28,290 bases of DNA. It comes from an uncultured Actinomycetes bacterium (GTDB lineage: Bacteria > Actinomycetota > Actinomycetes > Mycobacteriales > Nakamurellaceae). The stretch lies in NCBI GenBank assembly GCA_937926105.1, contig CALANS010000110.1:1-28290 (forward strand), given 5' to 3'. Under the pieces are notes generated by a model, which was given only the letters and a program-made list of their open reading frames with translations, did not search any database and was not told where the DNA came from. A program made the translations under genes and the position numbers. Positions 141-23,659 of the stretch are shown here, piece after piece (positions within the stretch are counted from its first letter, which is position 1; each line of letters begins with the position of its first letter).

Positions 141-839
141 TCAGCTTGCGGCGTACCTGCGCCCAAGTTCTTTTGGCGTGAGCCAGGGGCGCGCCCGATG
201 AATCATCCTGTGGCAGTTCGAGCAGAGTAGCGCGAGATCCTCAAGTCGGGTCATCACAGGCCCCGACGCATGCAGCGGAAGAATGTGGTGCACCTCGATG
301 TAATCTTGGCCAAGGTCGCCGTAGTGCCGGGCGAAATCAAACCAACAAACCTCGCATGCTATGGCGGCGCCAGCCGCCCGCGCCGCGGCGATCTTCTGTG
401 CACGAAGCGCTGCGCTCCGCTCACGTCTCAGGTGTAGCGCGGCTAGGACCCTGCCCTCGTGTGCTGCGAGCTCAGCGAGGTCGAGGTCTGATGCCACCTC
501 TGCGGTGATCTGTTCCCGGATCGATGCGGCCAAGTCGGCCATTCGGCGAGGTGCAGCGATGAACTGGCGCAGGACCTGAGAGTCAAGATGTCCACCGCGT
601 GTCGGTACCCCTTTGTAGTCTGGGTGCTGGGTCGCGATATCAAACGTCTTGCGTTGCACGCTGTTTGGGCTCCGGAAGCTTCCCGGTCGACCATCGAACT
701 CATGGAACGACGCCGATCGAAGAAGCTGAGACAGCTCGATCACTTCCGCATTGTGGACGCGAAGGCCGTTCCATCCATGCCTCGCGACAAGGTCAGTCGC
801 CAGCACGAGCTCGTCGTAAATCCAATTTAGCTGAGCCAT
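141..839 (-). CDS. McrA-like HNH endonuclease
   Basis: This 232-aa protein is a probable HNH nuclease of the modified-DNA-cutting McrA type. The C-terminal third has the full zinc-HNH signature: a first pair CEVC, then IEVHHILPL, then LALLCSNCHRMIH, giving two CxxC pairs and the catalytic His-His...Asn...His set. The N-terminal 100 residues (WIYDELVLATDLV, then FRSPNSVQRKTFDIA) resemble the head domain found ahead of HNH in ScoMcrA-like enzymes of Streptomyces; this is from memory of the family. The ATG at 837-839 begins MAQLNWIYDELVLA, which fits the usual N-terminus. It lies 46 bp downstream of vsr on the same strand, so the two probably share a transcript. Restriction of 5-methylcytosine DNA next to a 5mC methyltransferase would be self-harmful unless context-specific, so its role here may differ. 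The family call is solid; the substrate is inferred. Confidence 0.85.
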   Translation of the reverse strand: MAQLNWIYDELVLATDLVARHGWNGLRVHNAEVIELSQLLRSASFHEFDGRPGSFRSPNSVQRKTFDIATQHPDYKGVPTRGGHLDSQVLRQFIAAPRRMADLAASIREQITAEVASDLDLAELAAHEGRVLAALHLRRERSAALRAQKIAAARAAGAAIACEVCWFDFARHYGDLGQDYIEVHHILPLHASGPVMTRLEDLALLCSNCHRMIHRARPWLTPKELGRRYAAS

Positions 840-885: not shown

Positions 886-1350
886 TCAGCTGCTCAGCCT
901 GTGTTGGCGTAGGGATTCATATGTCCTGGATATCAGGTCGGAAGCGACGCCCGCTGGTTCGTGCTCCCAGATGCGCAGGACGGTCGCCTCTGCCGCTGCC
1001 AGCTGAACGTTGGTCTCAAGGTCGCGCGAGCGGTTTTGTGCGATCTTGGTCCGCCAGAATTCGGAGTTGGTCTTGGGCATCACGAAGTGGTCTGGGCAGC
1101 CGTGCCAGAAGCACCCGTCTACGAACACGTATAGTCCGACGCGGGTGAAGGTAATGTCGGCGCGGCGCCTTCGGTCGAACGGCAATGGTTGGTCGACGCG
1201 GAAGCGGAGGCCGCGGCGGTGAAGCAATGTACGTATGGCTAGTTCTGCTTTGGTGTCCCGCCGCCGGTTGGCGCGCATGACGTTGCGGACGGCGTCAGGT
1301 CGCATGACGCGCGATGGTGAAGCGATGTCGGTGGCGGCGTCTACCGTCAT
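886..1350 (-). CDS. vsr: Very short patch repair endonuclease Vsr
   Basis: A 154-aa Vsr nuclease. Vsr nicks 5' of the T in T:G mismatches left by deamination of 5-methylcytosine and normally accompanies Dcm-type methyltransferases. The core motifs are clear: RADITF carries the metal-binding Asp, YVFVDGCFWHGCPDH carries the conserved His and Cys residues, and NSEFWRTKIAQNRSRD is the usual C-terminal helix. I chose the ATG at 1348-1350 (MTVDAATDIASPSRVMRP) because it gives normal family length and the conserved MRANRRRDTKAE start of the fold. A longer reading to 1548 adds low-complexity sequence and overlaps the divergent ATPase gene. It is divergent from the ATPase at 1413 with 62 bp between, and precedes the HNH gene on the same strand. 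Confidence 0.93.
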   Translation of the reverse strand: MTVDAATDIASPSRVMRPDAVRNVMRANRRRDTKAELAIRTLLHRRGLRFRVDQPLPFDRRRRADITFTRVGLYVFVDGCFWHGCPDHFVMPKTNSEFWRTKIAQNRSRDLETNVQLAAAEATVLRIWEHEPAGVASDLISRTYESLRQHRLSS

Positions 1351-1412
1351 GTGCGGAGTGTCCGCCGGATTGTTGGGCGCCACGGTGTCATTATGTTCTG
1401 CGGAGGTGTGTC
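1351..1412. promoter_or_regulatory. Divergent intergenic region vsr / ATPase 1
   Basis: These 62 bp separate the vsr start from the first ATPase start. On the plus strand TTGTTG (1370-1375), a 16-bp spacer and TATGTT (1392-1397) look like a weak -35/-10 pair. A transcript from it would begin almost inside the GGAGG Shine-Dalgarno at 1402-1406, so the assignment is doubtful. The GGAGG lies 6 bp before a TTG codon and decides the ATPase start. Confidence 0.3.
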
Positions 1413-2705
1413 TTGGCGGATGAGTGGCAGTACTTCGATGTTGCACCGTCCGCTGCGCGCCTGACTGGGTCACTACGCGACATCGGCTATGACTTCCAGA
1501 CCGCGGTCGCGGATATCGTGGACAACTCGATCGCCGCCGGCGCGACACGCGTGGATGTGGGCCTCCGCTTCGAGCCGAACGCGTCCTTCGTCCTGATCTC
1601 GGACGACGGCTGCGGCATGCGGCCGGCTGACGTCCTAGAGGCGCTCCGGTTCGGCAGCCGACGCGGGTATGCGCGCAACGAGTTGGGCCGGTTCGGCCTC
1701 GGGCTGAAGACGGCGTCGTTCTCGCAGTGCCGCCGTCTGACGGTCGTCAGCCGGCACACTCCAACGAGGTCGACTGGCACCGTTCGTACGATCGATCTCG
1801 ATTTCATCGAGCGGTGTGATGCGTGGGCGGTCCTCGCCGACGAGTCGGGTAGGGCCGTCGATAGGGCAAGGGAGATCCTGCGGGACGGACCAGGCACGGT
1901 GGTGGCTTGGGAGAAGCTTGACCGGGTGCTGCCGAATAGGTTCGCCGAGTCCGGGTGGGGTCGCCGACGTCTCGATTCGCTGGCTCGCAGAACTGCGGAG
2001 CACCTGGGCATGGTCTTCCACCGGTTCATCTCCGGCAGCCACGGTGTGTCCCCGGTGACGATCTCGGTGAACGACGAGAAGCTTGAACCGTGGGATCCGT
2101 TCGCTACAGCGGAGGCGGCGACGGTAGCGCTCGAGCCTGAGATCTTCGAGGTAGAAGTCGGCGGGAGTTCGTCGGACGTGCTGTTTCGTGGCTACGTCCT
2201 GCCACCGAGGGACCGGTTCTCGACGGCGGAACAATTCGAGCGCATGTCCGGCCCGCTGAAGTGGAATCGGCAGCAGGGCCTCTACATCTACCGAGCGGAC
2301 CGCTTGGTCCAGTACGGCGGTTGGAACGGGATGCGTGGCATCGACGAACACACGAAGCTCGCCCGCGCATCGATCGACTTCGACACCGACCTGGACGAGG
2401 CGTTCCAGATCAACGTGGCCAAGATGAGCGTCGTGCTGCCCGCGGCGCTCAAGCACATGGTCGAGCGACCGGTCCACGAGCTCTGCATGCGCGCGGATTC
2501 GGCCTACCGGCAGGCGAATTCGACGACCGCTGAGCGGAAGCCGTCCACGAAATCCGGCACGGCCGATGGTGTGGGGCTCAGGGAGATCGGTGTCGCCATC
2601 AAGGCGGCGCTGATGGAGGGCGCCAACGACCTGCCGGCGTTCCGCACCGCTCTCGCCGTCTTACGTGACCGCAATCCGGACCTTGCCGCCCGGCTCGGCA
2701 TCTGA
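1413..2705 (+). CDS. MORC/MutL-type GHKL ATPase (paralogue 1)
   Basis: A 430-aa GHKL (Hsp90/MutL/histidine kinase fold) ATPase of the prokaryotic MORC-like group found in restriction-associated clusters. The ATP-lid motifs are in order: N-box AVADIVDNSIAAGA near residues 31-44, DDGCGM at 64-69, and GRFGLGLKTASFS at 92-104. A second S5-like half follows with WDPF, QQGLYIYRADRLVQYGGW and DEHTKLAR. The TTG at 1413 is preferred: GGAGG sits 6 bp upstream and the protein starts just before the ATPase fold, whereas the longer reading adds a Cys/Arg-rich stretch unlike any domain. The N-box carries Asp where MutL and MORC usually have the catalytic Glu. It ends 1 bp from the convergent methyltransferase. 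The role as an ATP-driven clamp or remodeller of the system is inferred from relatives. Confidence 0.85.
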   Translation: MADEWQYFDVAPSAARLTGSLRDIGYDFQTAVADIVDNSIAAGATRVDVGLRFEPNASFVLISDDGCGMRPADVLEALRFGSRRGYARNELGRFGLGLKTASFSQCRRLTVVSRHTPTRSTGTVRTIDLDFIERCDAWAVLADESGRAVDRAREILRDGPGTVVAWEKLDRVLPNRFAESGWGRRRLDSLARRTAEHLGMVFHRFISGSHGVSPVTISVNDEKLEPWDPFATAEAATVALEPEIFEVEVGGSSSDVLFRGYVLPPRDRFSTAEQFERMSGPLKWNRQQGLYIYRADRLVQYGGWNGMRGIDEHTKLARASIDFDTDLDEAFQINVAKMSVVLPAALKHMVERPVHELCMRADSAYRQANSTTAERKPSTKSGTADGVGLREIGVAIKAALMEGANDLPAFRTALAVLRDRNPDLAARLGI

Positions 2706-2706
2706 C

Positions 2707-4611
2707 TCAATGACGCCGCGCGGCCGCGCACCACGCCGCCAAAGGGCATTCATCGCACCGGGGATCCATTGGTGTGCAAACGTCATTGCCCAACTCGATC
2801 AGTGCTAGTTGTGCGACGCGTGCATTGATCCCGAAGCCGATCACCTTGGCGACAGCCAATCGGCCGTCGCTGTTGCGGTTCTTCCTGCCCAGCGGGTTGG
2901 CTTGGAACCTGCTGACGACTCGCAGCGCTCCGGCGGTCGCGACCACCGGTTCCTCCGAGGCGGTGATCACAAGCTGGGCCAACACAGCGACCGCCTGCGG
3001 CAGGATGTGGTCGGCCACCAGAGCATCCAGATCCTCGACCGTCGCAAACGGCCTGTCGCACATGGCACGGGCAACCTCCACGAGGGCCCGAACTCGATCG
3101 GCACGGTCCACCCACGACAGGATCTCGGTCAGCCGCTCTGTATCAATCAGAGCATCGCGCGGAGTCGCGTAGCCCGCAAGCAGCGGCCAGATAGATGCCA
3201 CCGTCGTCATCGACAGGCGATCCAAGACGAGTTCGCCCAGAACCACGTGCCACGGTGAGCTGCCATGCAGCCACGGCGTCGACGATCGAACCCTCACGCG
3301 GAACCAGTTCGCGAGCGCCGAGCTCAGTCGCTCGCTCGACGGCGGCCAGTCACCCTCCCCGCTCAGCGCCGCTAACACCCCGCGTCCGATTGCGGCGCCA
3401 AGCCGTGGCGGCACCGCATTGCCGATCTGGCGGAACGCGGCACTCGGCGGCCCAGCGAACCGGAACCAATCCGGGAACGTCTGCAGACGCGCCGCCTCAC
3501 GCACCGTCAGGGTGCGGTTCTGCTTCGGATGGATGTACCAGTAGCCATCCTTCGCGATGTGCGCGGTGATTGTGCGTGACACATCATTATCCGACAGGCG
3601 CTTGTACTTGTCGTCGAAGATGTCGTCGCGGTAGCGCTTGAGCTCGTCGGGCAGGTCCGAGTAACGACTCTCCGCATCGAGCAGCTCGAATGCCCGCTCG
3701 TCATCCGGCCGAACCGGACGGGTGATGTGGTCGAAGACCTTCGCTCGGTCCTCTTCGGAAACGCCTTCCCGCATCGCCCGCTGAAACGACGTTCGCGGCC
3801 CGCGATAGGCGGCGAACCCGTCGGATCCGCCCTTCGGCCGCCAACCACCCTCGACCTCGGGCAGATCCGAGATCGCGATCTCCACCGTAACCTTGCGCGG
3901 ATCTTCCTGCGGCCACACGAACGGCGACCCGTCACGGACGGCGACAAAGATCAGTCGCTGACGGAACTGCGGTACCCCATAGCGCCACGCGTCCACCACT
4001 CGCTGCTGCACGCTGTAGCCGAGGCGCTCCAATTCGAAAACCATGCTGCGCAGGATGAACATCTCCCGGTCCAGCGCCATATCCGGCACGTTCTCCATGA
4101 TCACGGCGCTCGGGCGCGCCAGCCGCGCGACCTCGAGGTACGACCGCCAAAGATCCCGCCGCTTGTCATGGGGATCACGCATGCCCTCGCGCACCAAGTG
4201 CCGCATCCCTGACCGACCGGCTTTCGAGAACGGCTGACACGGCGGACCGCCCGCGAGGACATCGATGCGGTTCGCCTTGAGGATTCGGGCTACCCGCTCG
4301 ACGACATCGGCATTACCCAGATCCCAGTCGATCGCCATCCCTCGCACGTGATGACGATGCGTCTCCAACGCCTCGCGGTCGTGATCGGCGCCGAGAACCA
4401 CGTGCATACCAGCCTGTTCTAGGCCCAAGCTCAGCCCACCGGCACCGCAAAATAGGTCAGCAGCTAGCACCGCATCCGGATCCACCCGCCTGATTCGCTG
4501 GCACAGACGTGACAGCTCAGCCTCAGTCTCGCAATGATCCGGGTGCGGCTCTAGCCTGATGTACGGGCCTCGAACCTGTCTGAAAGCGGGCACACGCACA
4601 TTTGAAGACAT
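2707..4611 (-). CDS. C5-cytosine DNA methyltransferase fused to HhH-GPD/FeS domain
   Basis: A 634-aa two-part protein. Residues 1-420 are a Dcm-type C5 methyltransferase: motif I DLFCGAGGLSLGL (52-64), motif IV GGPPCQPFSKAG with catalytic Cys125, motif VI MENVP (172-176), motif VIII QFRQRLIF (215-222), and late motifs LTVREAARLQTFP and QIGNAVPP (395-402). Residues 430-634 match the helix-hairpin-helix GPD glycosylase fold of EndoIII/MutY: PWHVVLGELVLDR, then the region around LP (537), and a C-terminal Cys612-x6-Cys619-x2-Cys622-x5-Cys628 cluster with exactly the Nth [4Fe-4S] spacing. The catalytic Asp segment (VVDxN in active enzymes) reads VVATAGALRVVSR, and the GxG of the hairpin is absent, so glycosylase chemistry is probably lost. 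It presumably methylates the host so the neighbouring ATPase/Z1/nuclease genes spare self DNA. It is convergent with ATPase 1 and divergent from ATPase 2. Confidence 0.9.
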   Translation of the reverse strand: MSSNVRVPAFRQVRGPYIRLEPHPDHCETEAELSRLCQRIRRVDPDAVLAADLFCGAGGLSLGLEQAGMHVVLGADHDREALETHRHHVRGMAIDWDLGNADVVERVARILKANRIDVLAGGPPCQPFSKAGRSGMRHLVREGMRDPHDKRRDLWRSYLEVARLARPSAVIMENVPDMALDREMFILRSMVFELERLGYSVQQRVVDAWRYGVPQFRQRLIFVAVRDGSPFVWPQEDPRKVTVEIAISDLPEVEGGWRPKGGSDGFAAYRGPRTSFQRAMREGVSEEDRAKVFDHITRPVRPDDERAFELLDAESRYSDLPDELKRYRDDIFDDKYKRLSDNDVSRTITAHIAKDGYWYIHPKQNRTLTVREAARLQTFPDWFRFAGPPSAAFRQIGNAVPPRLGAAIGRGVLAALSGEGDWPPSSERLSSALANWFRVRVRSSTPWLHGSSPWHVVLGELVLDRLSMTTVASIWPLLAGYATPRDALIDTERLTEILSWVDRADRVRALVEVARAMCDRPFATVEDLDALVADHILPQAVAVLAQLVITASEEPVVATAGALRVVSRFQANPLGRKNRNSDGRLAVAKVIGFGINARVAQLALIELGNDVCTPMDPRCDECPLAAWCAAARRH

Positions 4612-4798: not shown

Positions 4799-6286
4799 GT
4801 GGATCGGATGCAGCAAGCCTGGGACATCGCCGATCCTCGCCCGCAGTCGCTGATCGAGTCTCTGCGCGCGTTCGGATACTCCCCCGAGTCGGCGATCGCC
4901 GACCTTGTCGATAACAGCATCTCCGCTGGAGCAAGAAGCATCCAACTAAGGTTTGAGTGGAAAGGTGCGCAATCGACGGTCACAGTCTCCGACGATGGCT
5001 GTGGGATGTCCGAGGCAGTGCTCGTCTCGGCAATGACCCTCGGCAGTATGAGCCCGACCGCAGACCGAGACGCGTCCGACCTTGGCAGGTTCGGCCTCGG
5101 GCTGAAGACAGCGTCGTTCTCGCAGGCCCGTGAAGTCACGGTTGTCTCCGTTATCAGAGGCGGCCACGCGGCGACGCGGCGGTGGGATCTCGATACGGTG
5201 GTCGAGTCGGGCGAATGGCGGCTGCTCAGGGCCGGCGCGCGCGGCGTTGCCGTTGTAGAGCCGCCCTCAACGGGCGGCACCACGGTCGTCTGGTCGAAGA
5301 TGGACCGGCTCGTCGGCGCGGTCGATGCATCAGACATACACGCCCACAAGACGTTCTTAGATATGATCTCGCGGGTTCAAGGTCACTTAGAGGCGACGTT
5401 CCAACGCTTCCTGAGCGGGCAGGATCGAGTTCGGATCTCGATCAACGGGTGCGAGATTGAACCGTGGGACCCATTCATGACTAAGCATCCGGCGACGCAG
5501 CAGCTGGATGTTGAGGAAATTCCCTATAAGGGATATGTCATCACCGTGAGACCATACGTGCTACCGCACCGTAGCAAATTGAGCGATGCGGAGATCGCCA
5601 CGGGGCAGGGCACATCTGGCTGGACGCAGCAACAGGGTTTCTACGTGTTCCGGTCCGATCGTCTGCTTATGCAGGGCAGTTGGCTGGGTTTGGGGCTGAC
5701 GAAGGATGAGCACACCAAGCTGGCGCGCATCTCCGTCGGCTTCCCCTCCGCGCTCGACCATGAATGGCAGGTGGATGTCAAGAAATCAACCGCTCGTCCA
5801 CCGGCTCTCTTAAAGGATTCCCTCAGGCGCATCGCTCGGGCCACTCGAACCAGTGCTGAGAAGATCTACCGCCACAAGGGGCGGATCACAGCTCGTCGGA
5901 ACAGTCAACCGTTCGTCTTCGCATGGAACGAGCGGATGGGCCGCAATGGCGCGGTTCGCTACGAAGTGAATCGGAATCATCCGATTATCGTCGCCGCGCT
6001 GGATGCAGCAGGCAGCAACCGGCACGTGTTTGATCGCGCGATTCGACTCATCGAAGAGACCGTGCCGACGTCGCTGATCGGACTTTCCATAGCCCAATCG
6101 ATTGACAACCAGCTGGTCCCGTTTGATGAGGCCCAGAAGGACCTCAGGCCCCTCATCGAGCAAGCAATGGGCATCTACACCAGAGGGGGTATGTCCCGTC
6201 TCCGCGCGTTGGACACGATCGCGAATATCGAACCTTTCGCGAACTACCCGGCGCTGCTGCAAGCGCTCAGGGAAGAGGAGTCATGA
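4799..6286 (+). CDS. MORC/MutL-type GHKL ATPase (paralogue 2)
   Basis: A 495-aa GHKL ATPase, paralogous to the 430-aa ATPase at 1413. Motifs: N-box AIADLVDNSISAGA (32-45), DDGCGM (65-70), and GRFGLGLKTASFSQ (96-109). The later segments WDPF, QQGFYVFRSDRLLMQGSW and DEHTKLARISVGF mirror those of paralogue 1. As in the paralogue, Asp replaces the usual N-box Glu. An extra C-terminal 80 residues after the S5-like half distinguish it. The start is GTG at 4799 (ATG at 4808 is an alternative), with GAGG 8 bp upstream. The stop overlaps the Z1 start as ATGA, so it is the first gene of a coupled four-gene operon. In MZA-like systems this is the MutL component; that role is inferred. Confidence 0.88.
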   Translation: MDRMQQAWDIADPRPQSLIESLRAFGYSPESAIADLVDNSISAGARSIQLRFEWKGAQSTVTVSDDGCGMSEAVLVSAMTLGSMSPTADRDASDLGRFGLGLKTASFSQAREVTVVSVIRGGHAATRRWDLDTVVESGEWRLLRAGARGVAVVEPPSTGGTTVVWSKMDRLVGAVDASDIHAHKTFLDMISRVQGHLEATFQRFLSGQDRVRISINGCEIEPWDPFMTKHPATQQLDVEEIPYKGYVITVRPYVLPHRSKLSDAEIATGQGTSGWTQQQGFYVFRSDRLLMQGSWLGLGLTKDEHTKLARISVGFPSALDHEWQVDVKKSTARPPALLKDSLRRIARATRTSAEKIYRHKGRITARRNSQPFVFAWNERMGRNGAVRYEVNRNHPIIVAALDAAGSNRHVFDRAIRLIEETVPTSLIGLSIAQSIDNQLVPFDEAQKDLRPLIEQAMGIYTRGGMSRLRALDTIANIEPFANYPALLQALREEES

Positions 6287-9078
6287 GCATTTACGACACC
6301 ACACGGCAGATGGCCATGCCTCTGATCGACCTTGCGATCGAACTCCGCACGGCTGTCACAACTGACCTGATACGCGAGAAGGTCACGCTATGCGCCACCA
6401 TCATCAAAGGTGAGAATCCCGATGACCGGTTGGATGTCGAGCGGCTGGTGCGGGCGCTCGAGGCCGAGTACAACGTGCACGTGGGTGCGTGGAATTCGCT
6501 TGTGGACGACACCAATCATGTGCCGTGGCTTGATGGGCATATCGCGGCGAAGCAGGATTGGAAGTTCTGGGATCGATACTCACGATTCCTGAAGGGTGCC
6601 CACGGGCTGCCCATACCCGCAGTCCGCAGGCTCGACGAGATCACTGATGACGTGCTCGGCCGGCTTGAGGACCCGAAGCGTGAGGGGCCCTGGGACCGGC
6701 GTGGCCTTGTCGCCGGCCAAGTCCAGTCAGGCAAGACGGCAAACTATATTGGGCTGATCGCAAAGGCGATCGACACGGGCTACAAGCTCATCGTGGTTCT
6801 CGCCGGCATCCACAATAGCCTCCGAAGCCAGACCCAGGCACGGATAGACGAGGGAATCCTGGGCTTCGACACGAGGAGCTCCCGTCGCTGGGACCAAGTG
6901 CATGAATCGAGTCTTATCGGAGTAGGGAAGCGCGGCGCGGCGGTGCTTGATGTCGTCTCGTTTACCTCATCCGATCAGAACGGCGACTTCAAGCTGAACA
7001 TCGCCAAGCAGATGGCGATCGCTCCAGGAGGGGCGACACCGATCGTCCTAGTGGTGAAGAAGAACAAATCAATCCTGACTAACCTTTTCAAGTGGGCAAC
7101 AAGACTCAAAAAGGAAGAGGACCTGACCACCGGTGAACTCCGCGTCAGGGGTGTCCCCGTACTGATGATCGACGACGAAGCGGACCACGCGTCGGTAAAT
7201 ACGAAGGTGCAAGCAGACGACCCAGAATCGGATCCCTCTGTAATCAACGGACTCATCAGGCAGTTCCTCAACACATTTGACCGAACGGCCTATGTCGCCT
7301 ACACAGCGACGCCGTTCGCGAATATATTCATCGACCCTGATGCGAGCCATCAGGGCAGCGGTGAGGATCTGTTCCCGCGTAGCTTCATCGTTAATCTGCC
7401 AACCCCGAGTACGTACACGGGCCCGGAGAGGGTTTTCGGGCTGCGCGAGGATGTGGAGAACGCAATCGATGAGGTCGGCGCCCTCCCCATCACCCGTCCG
7501 ATCACTGACTACGAGGCGTGGCTCCCGGACAAGCACAAATCAGGTGACAACGTTGGCGGGGAACTACCAGAGTCCTTGAGGGATGCGATCGTCTTTTTCC
7601 TCATGGCAGGCGCAGTGCGGCGGCTTCGAGGTCAGGGATCCAAACACCACTCAATGCTCGTCCACGTCACCAGGTTCACGAATCTGCAAAAGCAGGTGAA
7701 AGACCAGGTGCAGGAATTCCTCCGCGAAGTGACGCAACGACTCGCCTACGGGGAGGGCTCAGAGACCCGCTTGAGGCTCCGTGTTGAGAGGCTGTACACG
7801 GACCTAATCCAGACGACCGAAGACATGCACCTCGCTCAGGATCTCGAAGGGCTGATTGGACCGGTACCAGCCCTCGACGAGATGTGGCGCGACATGCACG
7901 CAGCGGCGGTGAAGACCCACGTTCACCTCATCAATGGCAACTCGGCTGATGCCCTCGAATATGTCGATCATGCCGATGGGACGAGTGTGATCGCGATCGG
8001 CGGCGACAAGCTGTCACGGGGGCTGACCCTTGAGGGCCTCAGCGTCTCGTACTACCTGCGCGCCAGCCGCATGTACGACACATTGATGCAGATGGGCAGG
8101 TGGTTCGGCTATCGACCAGGATACCTTGATGTCTGTCGCCTTTTCACGACAAAGACGCTAATCAGTTGGTATGAGCGCATCACAGCTGCGGCCGCGGAGC
8201 TACAAAGCGAGTTCGACGCCATGGCTGCCGTCGGCAGGACGCCGGAGGACTTCGGGCTGAGGGTGAGACAACACCCCGACGGGCTGCTCGTCACCTCGCC
8301 GACGAAGCTGAAGGCGGCTCAGAAGATCAGTATCTCCTTCAGCGGCTCGATCTCCGAGACTGTGACCTTCCGCGGCGCGGATCGGCAGCGGAACCTGTCA
8401 GCTCTCAGCGACTTGGTCTCAGGCCTCCGGCGCGAAGAACGAGCCCGCAAGGGAATGATTCTATTCAGACACGTTAATCCCTCCCGCGTGATGACGTTCT
8501 TCGAGCATTACCACGCGGATCGCGCCGCGTACAAGGCGCAACCAAAGGCACTATTGGACTACATCGCGGCGCGTGTCGCGGATGACGAGTTGACGAATTG
8601 GACGGTGATGCTGGCAAGCGTCGACGGCCGAGCTACCTGGCCGGTGGATGGGGTCGACGTCGGGCTCACGGAACGGACCAGCCACAATTCAACCCCGCAA
8701 TCCGATCGCTACACCATCCGACGCGTCGTGAGCACCAGCCACCAGCTGCTCGAACTGCCTCGCGGATCTGCCGCTTGGGACGAAGCACTGCGCGGCACAA
8801 TCGGCTCGTGGGAGAACAACACGAGCCGAACGCGCAGTAGTAAGAGACCCGAAGAACCGTCCGGCCTTTGGGAACGAAGGGTTCGCGACAACCGCGTCGG
8901 GCTTCTGCTGCTCTATATGCTTGATCCAGCGCAATGGCGCGAGGATGAACGTGGCAAAACACCATTCGTCGGTTTCGCTGCATCATTCCCAGTTTCCGGG
9001 CGCGCGCAGCCTAAGGCGTACCAAGTAAATGCGGTCACACTCCGCGAGTTCGGTTGGGACGATGACGACGAGGACTGA
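6283..9078 (+). CDS. Z1-domain superfamily II helicase/ATPase
   Basis: A 931-aa Z1-family protein, a divergent SF2 helicase-like ATPase tied to MORC/MutL-type restriction clusters. Walker A is GQVQSGKT (145-152), Walker B is MIDDEADHAS (near 295-302), and a motif-III-like YTATPFANIF follows near 338-347. The Z1 core then has GGDKLSRGLTLEG (near 573-585) and the arginine-finger segment QMGRWFGYRPGY (near 604-615). It starts at an ATGA overlap with ATPase 2 and overlaps the next gene by 17 bp. It probably translocates on or remodels DNA for the adjacent nuclease. The family call is firm; the reaction is inferred. Confidence 0.93.
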   Translation: MSIYDTTRQMAMPLIDLAIELRTAVTTDLIREKVTLCATIIKGENPDDRLDVERLVRALEAEYNVHVGAWNSLVDDTNHVPWLDGHIAAKQDWKFWDRYSRFLKGAHGLPIPAVRRLDEITDDVLGRLEDPKREGPWDRRGLVAGQVQSGKTANYIGLIAKAIDTGYKLIVVLAGIHNSLRSQTQARIDEGILGFDTRSSRRWDQVHESSLIGVGKRGAAVLDVVSFTSSDQNGDFKLNIAKQMAIAPGGATPIVLVVKKNKSILTNLFKWATRLKKEEDLTTGELRVRGVPVLMIDDEADHASVNTKVQADDPESDPSVINGLIRQFLNTFDRTAYVAYTATPFANIFIDPDASHQGSGEDLFPRSFIVNLPTPSTYTGPERVFGLREDVENAIDEVGALPITRPITDYEAWLPDKHKSGDNVGGELPESLRDAIVFFLMAGAVRRLRGQGSKHHSMLVHVTRFTNLQKQVKDQVQEFLREVTQRLAYGEGSETRLRLRVERLYTDLIQTTEDMHLAQDLEGLIGPVPALDEMWRDMHAAAVKTHVHLINGNSADALEYVDHADGTSVIAIGGDKLSRGLTLEGLSVSYYLRASRMYDTLMQMGRWFGYRPGYLDVCRLFTTKTLISWYERITAAAAELQSEFDAMAAVGRTPEDFGLRVRQHPDGLLVTSPTKLKAAQKISISFSGSISETVTFRGADRQRNLSALSDLVSGLRREERARKGMILFRHVNPSRVMTFFEHYHADRAAYKAQPKALLDYIAARVADDELTNWTVMLASVDGRATWPVDGVDVGLTERTSHNSTPQSDRYTIRRVVSTSHQLLELPRGSAAWDEALRGTIGSWENNTSRTRSSKRPEEPSGLWERRVRDNRVGLLLLYMLDPAQWREDERGKTPFVGFAASFPVSGRAQPKAYQVNAVTLREFGWDDDDED

Positions 9079-10054
9079 GCTAGCCAAGATCTGGAGAGAA
9101 CTTGCGCGCGATACTGGCGGCCATGGATCGGTGCGAAGACGAGTGTTACCGGGGCTCGCGCATGACGTGTTCATCGGCGAGAACCGCCCTGATCGTCAAC
9201 GTGTGCTTATGCTGCAGATCCACGAGCGCCATGATGTGTCGCAGAGGCGACGGCCGTCATCACGTGGGGTTGTCATCGACGTTGATGCGTCTCGCCCTGA
9301 CGGCGTCGACATTCGGCTTGCGTCAACCACGTACGACAATGACTCGCTCTTCATGGAACTAACAGCGGATGTCATTGGCGTGATCGCGTCCAACCCCACG
9401 GCCGGCTTGGCGGCGCGTGTTTTGAATCGGATAGCGGCTTGGCAGCGCTTCTTCGCGACGCGCCCTCACGAGTTCAGCGCCGAGCAAGCAGCCGGGCTTT
9501 TCACCGAGCTGCACGTACTTGAATCGCTCCTCATACCCGCGATCGGTCCAAGCCGCGCAATCGCGGCATGGACGGGTGCCGATCCGGCAATACAAGACTT
9601 TCAAACTGAGCGCGCCACCATCGAGGTGAAATCGTTCCGCGGCACGGGCTCTGGACGCCTGACGATCAGCTCCGAGCAACAGCTCGACACAGCAGGCTCG
9701 GCTGACCTGTACGTGGCATACATTCGTATCGACCAGCGATCCGACGGTCCTGGCGCATCGATCCCTGATGCGATCAACCGCATTCGAACGACCATCATGA
9801 AAGATCAAGCCGCGGTATACGCGTTCGGGGACCGAATAGTCGCTTATGGTTGGACCGATGCTATCGCCGAATACCGCACCGAGCGATTCGAGGTGCGATC
9901 AAGCGAGTATTTCCATGTCGCCGACGGGTTCCCACGCATAATCGTCGACATGCTGCCACTCGGTGTCGGAGCCGTTTCTTACAGTATCGACAGAGCGGCG
10001 ATCGAACGATTCCTCGCCTCTCCACAGGATCTTACCCGAGCGCTCAGGAACTGA
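9062..10054 (+). CDS. DUF4420 PD-(D/E)XK nuclease
   Basis: A 330-aa protein of the DUF4420 (PD-(D/E)XK motif) family, the expected restriction nuclease of this cluster. The catalytic core is visible as Glu149 in LFTELHVLE, Asp179 in IQDFQTER and Glu188-Val-Lys190 in ATIEVKSFRG, a standard PD-(D/E)XK layout. The ATG at 9062 is preferred over a 9029 start because MTTRTELAKIWRELARD is the natural beginning of the fold; it overlaps the acidic tail of Z1 by 17 bp. Two bases separate its stop from the AIPR ATG. It probably cuts DNA recruited by the ATPase and Z1 proteins; this is inferred from family and context. Confidence 0.9.
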   Translation: MTTRTELAKIWRELARDTGGHGSVRRRVLPGLAHDVFIGENRPDRQRVLMLQIHERHDVSQRRRPSSRGVVIDVDASRPDGVDIRLASTTYDNDSLFMELTADVIGVIASNPTAGLAARVLNRIAAWQRFFATRPHEFSAEQAAGLFTELHVLESLLIPAIGPSRAIAAWTGADPAIQDFQTERATIEVKSFRGTGSGRLTISSEQQLDTAGSADLYVAYIRIDQRSDGPGASIPDAINRIRTTIMKDQAAVYAFGDRIVAYGWTDAIAEYRTERFEVRSSEYFHVADGFPRIIVDMLPLGVGAVSYSIDRAAIERFLASPQDLTRALRN

Positions 10055-10056
10055 CC

Positions 10057-12114
10057 ATGACAGACCAGCTTGTGGACTACCTCCACGACCTTCAGCAGCA
10101 GGTCACACTCGCGGCGTCGGTCGAGGGCAGTGAGCAAGGGCTCACCGAAGCCTTCACCTACTACATGGTCGATATTCTCACCGATGCGGGTGAGCTCGAA
10201 GACGCGGATGTCGCGACCTACCAATCCGTGGGGGCGCGGGCGTCGGGCTTCAGCCTCAGCGAGGACGAGAGCACCCTATGGCTGTTGCTGGCGGACTACC
10301 GCAGCGATATCGACGTCCAGAGCCTGACCAGGACTGATCTCGATATCCACTTCCGGAGAATGACCGCCTTCCTCGAGCGAGCCAGGGACGGTCTTTGGCG
10401 TCAGCTTGAGGAATCGGCGCCGAGCTGGGATATGGCGCACCGGATCTCGAATGCGTGGGATCAGGTGGGCGAGATCCGGATGGTACTGCTCACGAACAGC
10501 GCGCTCAGAGCGCCAATCGGCGACGCCGTGGACCTCAATGGACGCACGGTCATTCACTCGGTCTGGGACCTTGACCGCCTCCACAAGCTCGCGTCAAGCG
10601 GCCGTGCTCAGGAGCCAATATCGATTAACCTGATGGAGCTTTGGGGAGAGCCCGTCGCATCTTTGGGACCCGAGGGTGCGCCCGGTATTTACGATACATA
10701 CCTTCTCATGCTGCCCGGGGAACTGCTCGCAAAGATCTATGAGATCCACGGGCCAAGACTGCTCGAGCTCAACGTCCGGTCCTTCCTCCAAGCGCGCGGA
10801 AAAGTCAATCAAGGCATCCAGCGCACGATCAGCAATGAGCCCGACCGGTTCCTAGCATACAACAACGGAATCTCAATGACGGCGTCCTCCGTGGAAGTGT
10901 GCGACCTCCCATCCGGCGGTCGAGCGGTCGCCGCGATATCGGACCTACAGATCGTCAATGGCGGACAGACAACGGCCTCACTCCACTACGCGAAGGTGAA
11001 GAACAAGGCTGACCTCTCGCGGGTCTTCATCCAGGCCAAACTATCCGTCGTTGATCCGGACCGGCTCGACGACCTAGTCCCGAAGATCAGCGAGTTCGCT
11101 AACAGTCAAAACAAGGTTAACCTGGCCGACTTCAGAGCCAACGATCCGTTCCACGTGGAGGTCGAGCGCCTGTCGCGGACAATTTGGGCACCAGGCAAGT
11201 CTGGAACCGGGGATATGACTAGGTGGTTCTACGAACGGGCACGTGGCCAGTACGCGGACGCCTACGCGCGAGAACGAACACCGGCCAGACAACGACAATT
11301 CAGAGCCACACATCCGCAAAGCCAGAAATTCACGAAGACAGATCTTGCGAAGTTCGAGAACACCTGGGACCAGCTCCCATGGCTTGTCGCGTGGGGCGCG
11401 GAAAAGAACTTCCGCGAGTTCACACTGCAGCTAGCAAAGCGCGGCGCCTCATTCAAACCGGACCAACACTACTTCGAACGACTCATCGCGAAAGCCACGA
11501 TCTTCCGTCAGGCCGAGAAGATCATCGGCTCGCTACAGCTCGGTGGCTACAGGGCCCAAACCGTCACATACACGCTTGCAAAGCTGTTCCATGAGACGGG
11601 GCAGACCATAAACCTTGCCGCCATCTGGCGTACGCAAACGATTACCCCGGCATTCGCCCACGCCATCGCAGATCTCGGACCGAGGGTCCACGCTGCTCTC
11701 TTCGATACCGCCGGATCCCGAAACATAAGTGAGTGGGCGAAGAAGGAGGAATGCTGGAAGTCAGTACTCGACATCGCCTGGCAGATACCCACCGACCTAC
11801 GCCCAGAACTCGTCTCGTCACGGGTGCGAACTCGCACGACATCGGCTGAGAGCATCGGCGAACAGATGAACGACGAGGAAGTCGCCGCAACCAGGGACGT
11901 CCTAGCGGTGGCAGGGAATACGTGGAAGGCGCTGAGCGGATGGGCCAAAGAGACCAACTCACTCCAAGGCTGGCAACGAAGCATCGCATTCAGTATTGGA
12001 CGCATAATCGGCGCAGGAAAGGTTCCCTCGAGGAAGCAGATCGTCCAAGGAGCACGGATCCTTGAGGAAGCGCGCAGACTGGGTTTCCGAGCCTTGGAGG
12101 AGCCTTCCGAGTGA
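10057..12114 (+). CDS. AIPR family abortive-infection protein
   Basis: A 685-aa AIPR (abortive infection phage resistance) protein. The conserved block lies at roughly residues 255-470: RFLAYNNGISMTAS, DLQIVNGGQTTASLHYAK, KISEFANSQNKVNLADF, TRWFYERARGQY and QKFTKTDLAKFENTW. The N-terminal 200 residues are helical and less conserved. The ATG at 10057 follows the nuclease stop by 2 bp. The stop TGA (12112-12114) overlaps a GTG at 12111 that opens a further small reading frame. AIPR is the usual last gene of MutL/MORC-Z1-DUF4420 clusters; its biochemical activity is not established to my knowledge. Confidence 0.92.
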   Translation: MTDQLVDYLHDLQQQVTLAASVEGSEQGLTEAFTYYMVDILTDAGELEDADVATYQSVGARASGFSLSEDESTLWLLLADYRSDIDVQSLTRTDLDIHFRRMTAFLERARDGLWRQLEESAPSWDMAHRISNAWDQVGEIRMVLLTNSALRAPIGDAVDLNGRTVIHSVWDLDRLHKLASSGRAQEPISINLMELWGEPVASLGPEGAPGIYDTYLLMLPGELLAKIYEIHGPRLLELNVRSFLQARGKVNQGIQRTISNEPDRFLAYNNGISMTASSVEVCDLPSGGRAVAAISDLQIVNGGQTTASLHYAKVKNKADLSRVFIQAKLSVVDPDRLDDLVPKISEFANSQNKVNLADFRANDPFHVEVERLSRTIWAPGKSGTGDMTRWFYERARGQYADAYARERTPARQRQFRATHPQSQKFTKTDLAKFENTWDQLPWLVAWGAEKNFREFTLQLAKRGASFKPDQHYFERLIAKATIFRQAEKIIGSLQLGGYRAQTVTYTLAKLFHETGQTINLAAIWRTQTITPAFAHAIADLGPRVHAALFDTAGSRNISEWAKKEECWKSVLDIAWQIPTDLRPELVSSRVRTRTTSAESIGEQMNDEEVAATRDVLAVAGNTWKALSGWAKETNSLQGWQRSIAFSIGRIIGAGKVPSRKQIVQGARILEEARRLGFRALEEPSE

Positions 12115-21540: not shown

Positions 21541-21754
21541 CCGCCGCGGCAAGGAGGCGCGCATTGCCGGTGACGGCGCCGGTCACCGCGCCCAGTCCGC
21601 CCAGCCCAGCAGCGAGCAGCAGGCTCTGCCCGGCGCAGCAGACCAGCATGACGGCGGCGGCGCCCCAAACGAGGCGGCCGGTGCGGTCGCGGCCCTGCGG
21701 CGGCGGCTGCGGCTGCGACTCGCGGTGTTGCTCGGGTGTTGGGGTGTCAGGCAC
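21413..21754 (-). CDS. MerT-like mercuric ion transport membrane protein
   Basis: A 113-aa protein starting at GTG 21752-21754, overlapping the end of merA by 8 bp. Two hydrophobic helices follow a polar N-terminus: VWGAAAVMLVCCAGQSLLLA, with a Cys-Cys pair inside the membrane as in MerT and MerF, and LLAAAVIVVAVAATLMALRL. Together with its place behind merA this suggests inner-membrane Hg(II) uptake feeding MerA. The tail after LRLRRR is antisense to the transposase end and may have been altered at the module junction. The assignment rests on the CC-in-helix pattern and context, not on close similarity. Confidence 0.6.
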   Translation of the reverse strand: MPDTPTPEQHRESQPQPPPQGRDRTGRLVWGAAAVMLVCCAGQSLLLAAGLGGLGAVTGAVTGNARLLAAAVIVVAVAATLMALRLRRRNAHACARASSAPSPPPSWPTFRCW

Positions 21755-23171
21755 AGCAGGAGGTGGGGAGCTGGTAGCGGAACAGGCCGGCGGTCAGGCG
21801 CAGGCTTTCGGCCATGGTCAGGTACGGCGCCCACGTGTCGGCGACGTCGTCGACGGTCATCCCGGACCGGATGGCGTAGGTGGCCGCGAGCATCATCTCC
21901 CCGGCGCCGTCGGCCAGGGCGTGCACACCCAGCACCTGCCCGGTGGTCGCGTCGGCGACCACCTTGACCGCGCCGCGGGTGTCCCGATTAGCCAGGGCGC
22001 GGGGCACGTCGGCCAGGTCCAGGATTCGGCAGTCGCACGCGATGCCTGCCGCCAGCACCTCGCTCTCGGTCATCCCGGCCGACGCGAGCTGCGGGCGGGT
22101 GAAGACCACCGCCGGCAGCCCCGTGTAGTCCACCCGGGCGGTGGAAGGGGCGCAGCAGTCGTCCACGTCCTTCCCGGCGTCGGCGGCGTCCATGACGGCG
22201 GCCGCGTTGCGCGCGGCGACCCGTCCGCCGGCCGCGGCGACGTACACGTACTGCGGGCCGCCGGTGACGTCGCCGGCGGCGTACACCCGCGGGTTGCTGG
22301 TGGCCTGCCGCTCGTCAACCATCACGAAACCGGCCGCGTCGACGTTCACCCCGGCAGCGGGCAGGTCCAGGCCGTCGGTGCGCGGGCTGCGCCCGGTCGC
22401 GACCAGCAGCCGCTGCCCGCGCAGCTGGGCGCCTGAGGCGGTGGTCACGACTACACCGTCGCCGTCCTGGGAGACCCGAGTCGCGTGTTCGGGAGTGACG
22501 GTGATGCCGTCGTCGGCGAAGACCGCGGCCAGGGCGGCGGCGAGCTCGGGCTCGGCGCGGGGGGCCAGGTGCCCCACCAGGCTCACCTGGGCGCCGAGGT
22601 GGGCGAACAGCTGGGCCTGTTCCATGCCGACGTACCCGCCGCCGATAACGACCAGGGACTCGGGCAGCTCGGGCAGCTCCATCGCCGTGGTCGAGGTCAG
22701 CCAGTCCACCCCGTCCAGGCCGGGCAGGTCGGGGACGGCCGGTTGCGCGCCGGTCGCGACCAGGTAGGCCCGGGCCCGCAGGGGGCGCCCGTCCACGGCC
22801 AGGGTGTCCATGTCGGTGAACGTGGCCTGACCGGTGCGGATTTCGAATCCGTACGCGTCGGCGACGTCGGCGTACTTGGCCCCGCGCAGTCGCTCGACGA
22901 GCTCGTCCTTCTGCGCCACCAGCGCGCCCAGGTCCACCGGGCCGGCACTGGTCGGGACGCCGTCGTACGGGTGGGTCAGCGCGCCGTGCCGGGCCCCGGC
23001 GGCGGCGAGGAGCGTCTTGGAGGGGACGCAGCCGATGTTCACGCACGTGCCCCCCAGCAGGCCGCGTTCGACCAGGACCACGCCGCGCCCGGCCAGGCTC
23101 GCGGCGATTGCCGCGGACATCGCCGCACCGCCGCTTCCCACCACTGCCAGCTCGACGTCGTACTCGTGCAT
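21747..23171 (-). CDS. merA: Mercuric reductase MerA
   Basis: A 474-aa cytosolic flavoprotein reducing Hg(II) to Hg(0) with NADPH. FAD-binding VVGSGGAAMSAAIAA is at 10-24, the redox-active pair Cys43/Cys48 in GGTCVNIGCVPSK, and NADPH-binding VIGGGYVGME near 175-184. The second FAD motif is near VYAAGDVTG (297-304). In the dimerisation domain, APYLTMAE has the conserved Tyr450, and the C-terminus ends SCCA with the vicinal Cys472/Cys473 that hand over mercury. There is no N-terminal HMA domain, as is common in actinobacteria. An additional Cys pair (DDCCAP, 339-340) and CDC (379-381) are unusual. The start is ATG 23169-23171 with GGAGG upstream. It is divergent from merR. Confidence 0.97.
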   Translation of the reverse strand: MHEYDVELAVVGSGGAAMSAAIAASLAGRGVVLVERGLLGGTCVNIGCVPSKTLLAAAGARHGALTHPYDGVPTSAGPVDLGALVAQKDELVERLRGAKYADVADAYGFEIRTGQATFTDMDTLAVDGRPLRARAYLVATGAQPAVPDLPGLDGVDWLTSTTAMELPELPESLVVIGGGYVGMEQAQLFAHLGAQVSLVGHLAPRAEPELAAALAAVFADDGITVTPEHATRVSQDGDGVVVTTASGAQLRGQRLLVATGRSPRTDGLDLPAAGVNVDAAGFVMVDERQATSNPRVYAAGDVTGGPQYVYVAAAGGRVAARNAAAVMDAADAGKDVDDCCAPSTARVDYTGLPAVVFTRPQLASAGMTESEVLAAGIACDCRILDLADVPRALANRDTRGAVKVVADATTGQVLGVHALADGAGEMMLAATYAIRSGMTVDDVADTWAPYLTMAESLRLTAGLFRYQLPTSCCA

Positions 23172-23220
23172 GGTCTGCCTCCAGTTCACGTCCACGGATG
23201 TTCAGGGTCCACAATGGACG

Positions 23221-23242
23221 TTCCAGTGCAGGGGAAGGTCAA
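23221..23242 (-). promoter_or_regulatory. mer operator/promoter for merA
   Basis: On the minus strand a -35 box TTGACC (23237-23242) overlaps a dyad TTCC-N8-GGAA (23221-23236). This is the arrangement of MerR-family operators, which lie in an over-long spacer. The -10 would fall near 23211-23216 (CATTGT), about 20 bp from the -35. A second palindrome GTCCA-CAA-TGGAC sits just beyond it. Confidence 0.65.
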
Positions 23243-23269
23243 GCCCGAACCCGGAAACAGGAGGCAGTC

Positions 23270-23659
23270 GTGCTCATTGGCGAGGTGGCGACAGCGGGAG
23301 GCACCACCGCCAAGACGCTGCGGTTCTACGAGCAGGAGGGTCTTCTGCCCGAGCCGGGCCGTACGCCGGGCGGGTACCGCGACTACGACGGCGACGTGCT
23401 GGGCCGGCTCGACTTCATCCGCCGCAGCCGGACGGCCGGGCTGACCCTGGGCGAGATCCGCGAGATCCTCGACCTGCGCGACGGGGGCGCAGCTCCCTGC
23501 GAGCACGTCCAGGGGGTGCTGACCCGGCGGCTGGAGGACCTCGACGCCCAGATTGCCGAGCTGACCGTGCTGCGCGCCGCCGTCGCCGACCTGTGGGCCG
23601 GGGCCGCGACCGTCGAACCAGCCAGTTGCGACGCGGCCAGCGTTTGCCGGTACGTGTAG
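23270..23659 (+). CDS. merR: MerR-family mercury-responsive regulator
   Basis: A 129-aa MerR-type activator. The winged helix-turn-helix reads VATAGGTTAKTLRFYEQEGL, then PGGYRDY. The long dimerisation helix follows Cys77, and the C-terminus has Cys120 and Cys126. Three cysteines in this arrangement are what mercury-sensing MerR proteins use to bind one Hg(II) between subunits. The start is GTG 23270 with GGAGG 5 bp upstream. It is divergent from merA across a 98-bp gap holding the operator, so it likely represses its own gene and activates merA on mercury. Confidence 0.92.
   Translation: MLIGEVATAGGTTAKTLRFYEQEGLLPEPGRTPGGYRDYDGDVLGRLDFIRRSRTAGLTLGEIREILDLRDGGAAPCEHVQGVLTRRLEDLDAQIAELTVLRAAVADLWAGAATVEPASCDAASVCRYV

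Follow-up and report, generated by a model that had tools for sequence, protein, structure and literature searches.

What is a domain related to DNA repair glycosylases doing at the end of a DNA methyltransferase? The question is raised by a 28,290-nucleotide stretch of an uncultured Actinomycetes bacterium of the Nakamurellaceae (contig CALANS010000110.1; the whole stretch analysed is hereafter called the window), in which an open reading frame of 634 residues at 2707-4611 on the reverse strand joins a C5 cytosine methyltransferase to a pseudo-HhH-GPD tail. Comparisons of this tail with its fused and free-standing relatives suggest that it is a repurposed glycosylase domain that now most likely serves as a non-catalytic accessory of the methyltransferase, a reading to which we assign a probability of about 0.55.

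The two halves of the protein were recognized by PF00145, by the MutY model TIGR01084 and in an AlphaFold2 (AF2) model of the full length, which reached a mean predicted local distance difference test score of 90.2 and a predicted template modelling score of 0.89 in a prediction made without the [4Fe-4S] cluster. The methyltransferase domain spans residues 49-410 (3382-4467, reverse strand), with PF00145 covering residues 51-410 at E 1.5e-56, and has the class I fold. The sequence-only reading had described it as carrying the full set of C5 methyltransferase motifs, and all of those listed were located (FCGAGG at residue 54, PPCQP at 123, ENVPD at 173, SRTITAH at 345, REAARLQ at 371 and GNAVPP at 397). 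Its best PADLOC match is DrmMII of the DISARM system (3.2e-94), a model of 468 positions that aligns to residues 37-419 and stops before the tail.

Profile and structure comparisons place the tail (residues 428-632; 2716-3330, reverse strand) in the all-helical MutY/Mig.Mth fold of the HhH-GPD superfamily. TIGR01084 matches residues 429-632 at E 4.3e-10 and, at E ≤0.1, finds 54/54 tails of an alignment of related fusions (A1). A profile of these 54 tails run against the PDB recovers MutY at 5.4e-17, Mig.Mth at 2.1e-16 and EndoIII at 5.7e-10. The Pfam HhH-GPD model PF00730 matched 0/54 A1 tails at E 0.1, and a Cys-loop model matches 20 of the 54. Judged by these profiles, the homology to MutY-type glycosylases is not a product of chance, and MutY/Mig.Mth is the closest relative. 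An EndoIII-like [4Fe-4S] region had been proposed from the letters alone: the HhH-GPD fold and the exact cysteine spacing bear this out, so that a fold of some unrelated kind is not what the tail has, but the kinship to EndoIII is displaced by that to MutY/Mig.Mth. ROS1-type 5-methylcytosine (5mC) glycosylases were also rejected as relatives, with a match limited to the cysteine part (E 0.03). The tail nevertheless differs from the MutY adenine glycosylase: it scores 43.9 bits against a family cut-off of 286.5, has lost the catalytic set and lies outside the MutY clade. From the T:G mismatch glycosylase Mig.Mth (Mig.MthI, structure 1kea) it differs by its fusion to a methyltransferase, by lacking the catalytic Asp, the GxG hairpin and the DGN-type Asn, and by two added motifs.

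Residue counts were made on two sets found with the same profile: fused tails, from reading frames that match a methyltransferase as well as a tail, and free HhH-GPD reading frames. The sources were 64 genome_contigs loci, database proteins, one plasmid and samples of four phyla. Removal of identical sequences, of L083 (split by a TGA codon) and of P0040 left 105 fused and 120 free sequences. P0040 (335 residues, on a contig of 1,757 bases) has no methyltransferase match and no Asp, and the last residues of a methyltransferase precede its tail; we take it to be a broken fusion on this sequence evidence; were it placed among the free sequences, it alone would break the rule that free copies keep the Asp. 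L064, L043 and L052 were dropped before counting because they had no usable tail, and L054, L056 and L058, whose extensions have no profile match, lie outside the 105. Alignment A1 also omits L009, L049, L050, L054, L055, L056, L058 and L063.

The contrast between the two sets is sharpest at the catalytic Asp of the GPD loop. Residues 553-570 of the fusion read EEPVVATAGALRVVSRFQ, and the Asp column falls on T559 (2935-2937, reverse strand). This column holds Asp in 120/120 free sequences and in 0/105 fused ones, which instead have T (47), G (20), N (18), S (9), A (5), R (2), K, Q and V (1 each) and one gap (L048). The Arg five residues downstream (R564) is invariant in 105/105 fused and 120/120 free sequences and thus fixes the alignment, ruling out a one-residue shift of the Asp. 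The loss of the Asp noticed in the sequence-only reading therefore stands, with T559 rather than A558 as the residue concerned, and the condition set to refute it, an Asp kept by homologues, does not hold for any of the 105 fused tails. No Asp-bearing fusion was found among 58 of the 64 genome_contigs loci that have a profile-matching fused tail, among 39 fused database proteins (37 distinct), in the one plasmid or among the fetched matches of the four phylum samples (339, 396, 398 and 198 genomes, with at most 7-14 candidates scored per genome and, in the samples of 396 and 398 genomes, only the best 30 matches made into loci); the last two samples yielded no further fusion. The search profile was built from 54 Asp-less tails, yet it readily finds Asp-bearing MutY proteins. 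An alignment search for stand-alone tails lacking the Asp returned fusion fragments (P0039, P0040) and Asp-bearing glycosylases. Free glycosylases with a C5 methyltransferase match in the same short stretch keep the Asp in nine loci and five more; at one of the nine (L100) the methyltransferase match overlaps the glycosylase on the opposite strand.

Other elements that glycosylases of this type use to flip and hold a base have been lost alongside. The hairpin GxG, likewise reported as lost, reads I536-L537-P538 here (hairpin region, residues 531-548; 2968-3021, reverse strand) where the family has LPGxG, and GxG is present in 3/105 fused compared with 118/120 free sequences; the second Gly of the helix-hairpin-helix is also gone from most of the 105 fused tails. 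Using the MutY pocket residues named in the accessible part of PMC2714593 and our own residue count, we mapped further positions onto the tail. The LQQT wedge has Q at column 464 in 107/120 free and 0/105 fused sequences, and at column 465 in 99/120 free and 4/105 fused sequences, where R is found in 82. The DGN Asn column is N in 113/120 free and 0/105 fused sequences (G in 79), and the LPWR Arg at column 448 is kept in 102/120 free and 3/105 fused sequences (L in 82). R at 465 and L at 602 (73/105) are Mig-like, by comparison with Mig residues taken from the same part of PMC2714593. What the fused tails retain is equally specific. R564 and R568 are kept in 105/105 and 102/105, and E460 (3232-3234, reverse strand), at the column of the MutY E37 and Mig E42 acid, is acidic in 87/105. 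All four cysteines of the predicted [4Fe-4S] loop (612, 619, 622 and 628; 2728-2778, reverse strand) are present in 103/105; in the window protein they have the C-x6-C-x2-C-x5-C spacing of MutY, EndoIII and Mig, and would be expected to hold a cluster.

Two motifs are found only in the tails. E553-E554-P555-V556 (2944-2955, reverse strand) lies just before the lost Asp, with an acid-acid-Pro pattern in 76/105 fused and 0/120 free sequences, and N578-x2-S581-D582-G583-R584 (2860-2880, reverse strand) belongs to an N..[ST].GR pattern found in 95/105 fused and 0/120 free sequences. The mean net charge of the domain is -2.8 (104 fused tails, with a wide spread from -14 to +10), compared with +3.6 in an earlier set of 71 free tails.

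A tree of 96 rows groups 25 fused tails in one clade (100/100), which is not nested inside a separate clade of 58 free rows (100/99) that we take to be MutY-type. Nearest to the fused branch are Mig.Mth, four cyanobacterial glycosylases and eight others whose genes lie close to one for a C5 methyltransferase. With a long fused branch, midpoint rooting and bootstrap values that had yet to stabilize, the tree does not fix the exact sister of the fused clade; a free glycosylase from L048 is absent from it, having been de-duplicated against an excluded copy. The ratio of nonsynonymous to synonymous substitution rates (dN/dS) in the tail, taken over 82 pairs whose methyltransferase domains are 78-99.5% identical, was 0.05-0.36 where computable, although many pairs have dS >1 and the ratios are accordingly rough. 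In most pairs the methyltransferase domain has the lower ratio of the two: the tail changes more quickly, yet it is under constraint.

The window surrounds the fusion with genes that are probably part of an anti-phage island. A Vsr-type T:G mismatch endonuclease (889-1479, reverse strand; TIGR00632 8.6e-30, E. coli Vsr 1cw0 1.3e-11) probably starts further inside that stretch. Pfam, NCBIfam and PADLOC matches on the forward strand describe a MzaB-like GHKL (MutL/MORC-type) ATPase (1410-2702) convergent with the fusion gene, a second MzaB-like GHKL ATPase (4799-6286), an intervening reading frame (6283-9078), a MzaD-like PD-(D/E)XK protein with DUF4420 (9029-10054) and a MzaE-like AIPR protein (10048-12114). 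Homologues of MzaB, MzaC, MzaD and MzaE are thus present together, but differ from the MZA anti-phage system in that all fall below the NCBIfam cut-offs (MzaB 247 and 418 versus 850 bits, MzaC 743 versus 1500, MzaD 150 versus 420, MzaE 421 versus 1050). MzaA is a sigma factor (PMC9523054); no model for it was among the matches listed for eight window proteins, and no whole-window MzaA search was made. Among the matches listed for the eight proteins around the fusion, Drm models hit the methyltransferase only. In neither of the two papers on the Mza-type comparison system does the main text use the word 'glycosylase'.

Further features of the window are a DDE transposase (PF01609, 12261-13823) directly after the AIPR gene, consistent with a mobile island, and an HNH endonuclease (141-839, reverse strand) with a weak PADLOC match to type IV restriction, similar genes to which occur in 2 of 54 full-tail loci (L023, L038). 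A pyridine nucleotide-disulphide oxidoreductase (21747-23195, reverse strand), which we take to resemble mercuric reductase, adjoins a MerR-family regulator (23108-23659, forward strand).

Across other loci the fusion keeps varied company. Vsr, which had been singled out as the repair neighbour, is indeed present in 47/54 full-tail loci, and a Vsr profile search left the figure for the whole set unchanged from an earlier count at 49/64 loci. A MzaB-like match is found in 51/54 full-tail loci, typically convergent with the fusion gene. Two of the others (L046:68-10917, L057:65-10935) are DISARM-like, with a DrmD/BrxH-type SNF2 helicase, DrmA, DrmB and DrmC and the tailed methyltransferase after the DrmA-DrmB-DrmC genes; no Vsr match was found within the stretch searched in either. 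A CCWGG target, suggested by Vsr and by DISARM, was dropped, since the accessible part of PMC9142583 names YMT(mC)GAKR as the motif of Serratia DISARM; a TCGA core would be a guess. Because the fusion occurs in MZA-like, DISARM-like, double-GHKL and DUF6339 loci, the tail appears to go with the methyltransferase rather than with any single restriction effector.

The DUF6339 setting is a cyanobacterial operon of two unknown proteins, DUF6339 and the tailed methyltransferase, found on a Synechococcus plasmid (L131:256-5820) and in Stenomitos (L048:5382-10893); Pfam gives no match at E 0.01 for the first two proteins of the L048 operon. L048 (Stenomitos frigidus) also encodes, in tandem at 8992-11718, the fused tail without its Asp and then an intact stand-alone Mig-type glycosylase (LIDTNTVRI), with no Vsr match within the stretch searched. 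In L049 and L050 the tail is of a weak form, and its neighbour is a double-GHKL protein resembling a histidine kinase. Such proteins (L049:7858-10065, L050:7246-9621, L054:5428-7626) begin with a MORC-like GHKL domain, end in a histidine-kinase ATPase domain and adjoin a C5 methyltransferase, an uncommon partnership between a DNA methyltransferase and what may be a signalling kinase; the gene next to the L050 protein has a weak, sub-threshold response-regulator match. An HgiDII-type restriction enzyme was considered beside L049, L050, L054 and L058 and rejected, the match covering the GHKL part only (52-81 versus 550 bits), and three of these four neighbours end in the histidine-kinase ATPase domain. 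A second C5 methyltransferase with a more decayed tail lies on the opposite strand in L032, L035, L038, L047 and L053, its tail keeping mainly the C-terminal half (RVAAR, TDGR and the cysteine loop).

How might such a domain have arisen, and what could it do? A Mig.Mth/MutY-type glycosylase, most likely encoded beside a C5 methyltransferase, would have joined that enzyme in a single fusion event. Thereafter the copy in the fusion would have lost the glycosylase Asp and base-flipping elements while keeping the fold and four-cysteine loop and gaining a conserved surface made of the EEPV loop and the N-x2-[ST]DGR helix. The tail may now steady the methyltransferase on DNA, dock partners from the restriction system, or both, and the repair of T:G mismatches from deaminated 5mC would fall to another protein, generally Vsr and in L048 perhaps the separate glycosylase. 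That the fusion at one time tied methylation to repair, as suggested earlier, is plausible. Several observations weigh against the account as a whole. E460, R564 and R568 are still kept, the charge spread is wide, the selection ratios are rough, the AF2 model leaves out the iron-sulfur cluster, and the extensions of L054, L056 and L058 have neither cysteines nor a profile match, so that domain loss or replacement is possible. L046, L048 and L057 (3/54 full-tail loci) have no MzaB-like match, and a fixed MzaB partner is therefore not universal. Sis-HhH-GPD of Saccharolobus islandicus, which has Ser where the Asp would be, is reported to be active through E134 (PMC11754123), and loss of the Asp is thus no proof that the tail is inactive. 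The label 'dead' given to the domain earlier accordingly goes further than the loss of Asp and hairpin can prove.

That precedent lends some weight to a rebuilt enzyme, still a glycosylase or lyase through E460, E553/E554 or D582 in place of the Asp. As far as the accessible description goes, Sis-HhH-GPD resembles the tail in its Fe-S loop, absent Asp and Arg at +5 and +9 from the Asp site, and differs in acting through E134 and in not being described as fused (PMC11754123). Acids at 553, 554 and 582 are found in 85, 92 and 95 of 105 fused compared with 14, 9 and 8 of 120 free sequences, and R564 and R568 persist. Column 540, to which we assume Sis E134 maps by the 18-residue EndoIII K120/D138 spacing, is acidic in only 1/105 fused tails, no new acid is invariant, and L048, L049 and L050 (3/105) are acid-less at all four candidate sites, which makes a rebuilt enzyme unlikely. 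The proposal that the inactive domain reads 5mC or a T:G mismatch at the methylation site, and passes it on to either Vsr or the MutL-like ATPase MzaB, draws on its kinship with Mig.Mth and methyltransferase-adjacent glycosylases, the Mig-like residues at 465 and 602, the retained R564/R568 and both neighbours. It has to contend with the loss from most tails of the wedge, the DGN Asn, the second Gly and the LPWR Arg, with a domain that is acidic on average where its relatives are basic, and with tails in L046 and L057 that have no Vsr match; we consider it doubtful, one option among several and not the best supported.

Recruitment of the neighbouring GHKL ATPase MzaB into the methyltransferase complex is favoured by the MzaB-like match in 51/54 full-tail loci, its gene typically convergent with that of the fusion, and GHKL proteins of another type adjoin L049, L050, L054 and L058. 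Full tails nevertheless occur without a MzaB-like match, L054 and L058 have the GHKL neighbour without a recognizable tail, and L049 and L050 have the weak tail only, so a dedicated docking module seems rather improbable. Least credible is a decaying remnant retained for solubility alone: the lost catalytic and flipping residues and the faster evolution of the tail would fit, but its low dN/dS, the four cysteines and the conserved tail-only motifs would not. A more speculative thought, and one we hold at long odds, is that the face which used to bind the base has acquired a new pocket, built from the EEPV loop, R564 and the N-x2-[ST]-D-G-R helix, as a re-engineered active site or sensor by which the methyltransferase recognizes its own product or a phage modification. 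Were this so, the product would be 5mC or the deaminated T:G mismatch, the tail would gate methylation or restriction through an iron-sulfur domain, and the epigenetic mark would have a built-in self-check.

Literature searches, with thin coverage of subscription papers, returned no description of such a fusion; the source names seen for these proteins are cytosine methyltransferases only, and the Pfam HhH-GPD model overlooks the tails. The tails look like a natural experiment in which a base-excision enzyme has been turned to another use inside a probable phage-defence methyltransferase. Since the catalytic residue is lost while the fold is kept and new conserved motifs are gained, the pattern suggests a repair enzyme re-used for a new job, and the sharp contrast between fused and free copies at the catalytic Asp, together with the new motifs, provides precise targets for mutants. 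If the tail does sense mismatches or 5mC, then DNA marking, repair and immunity would be joined in one protein.
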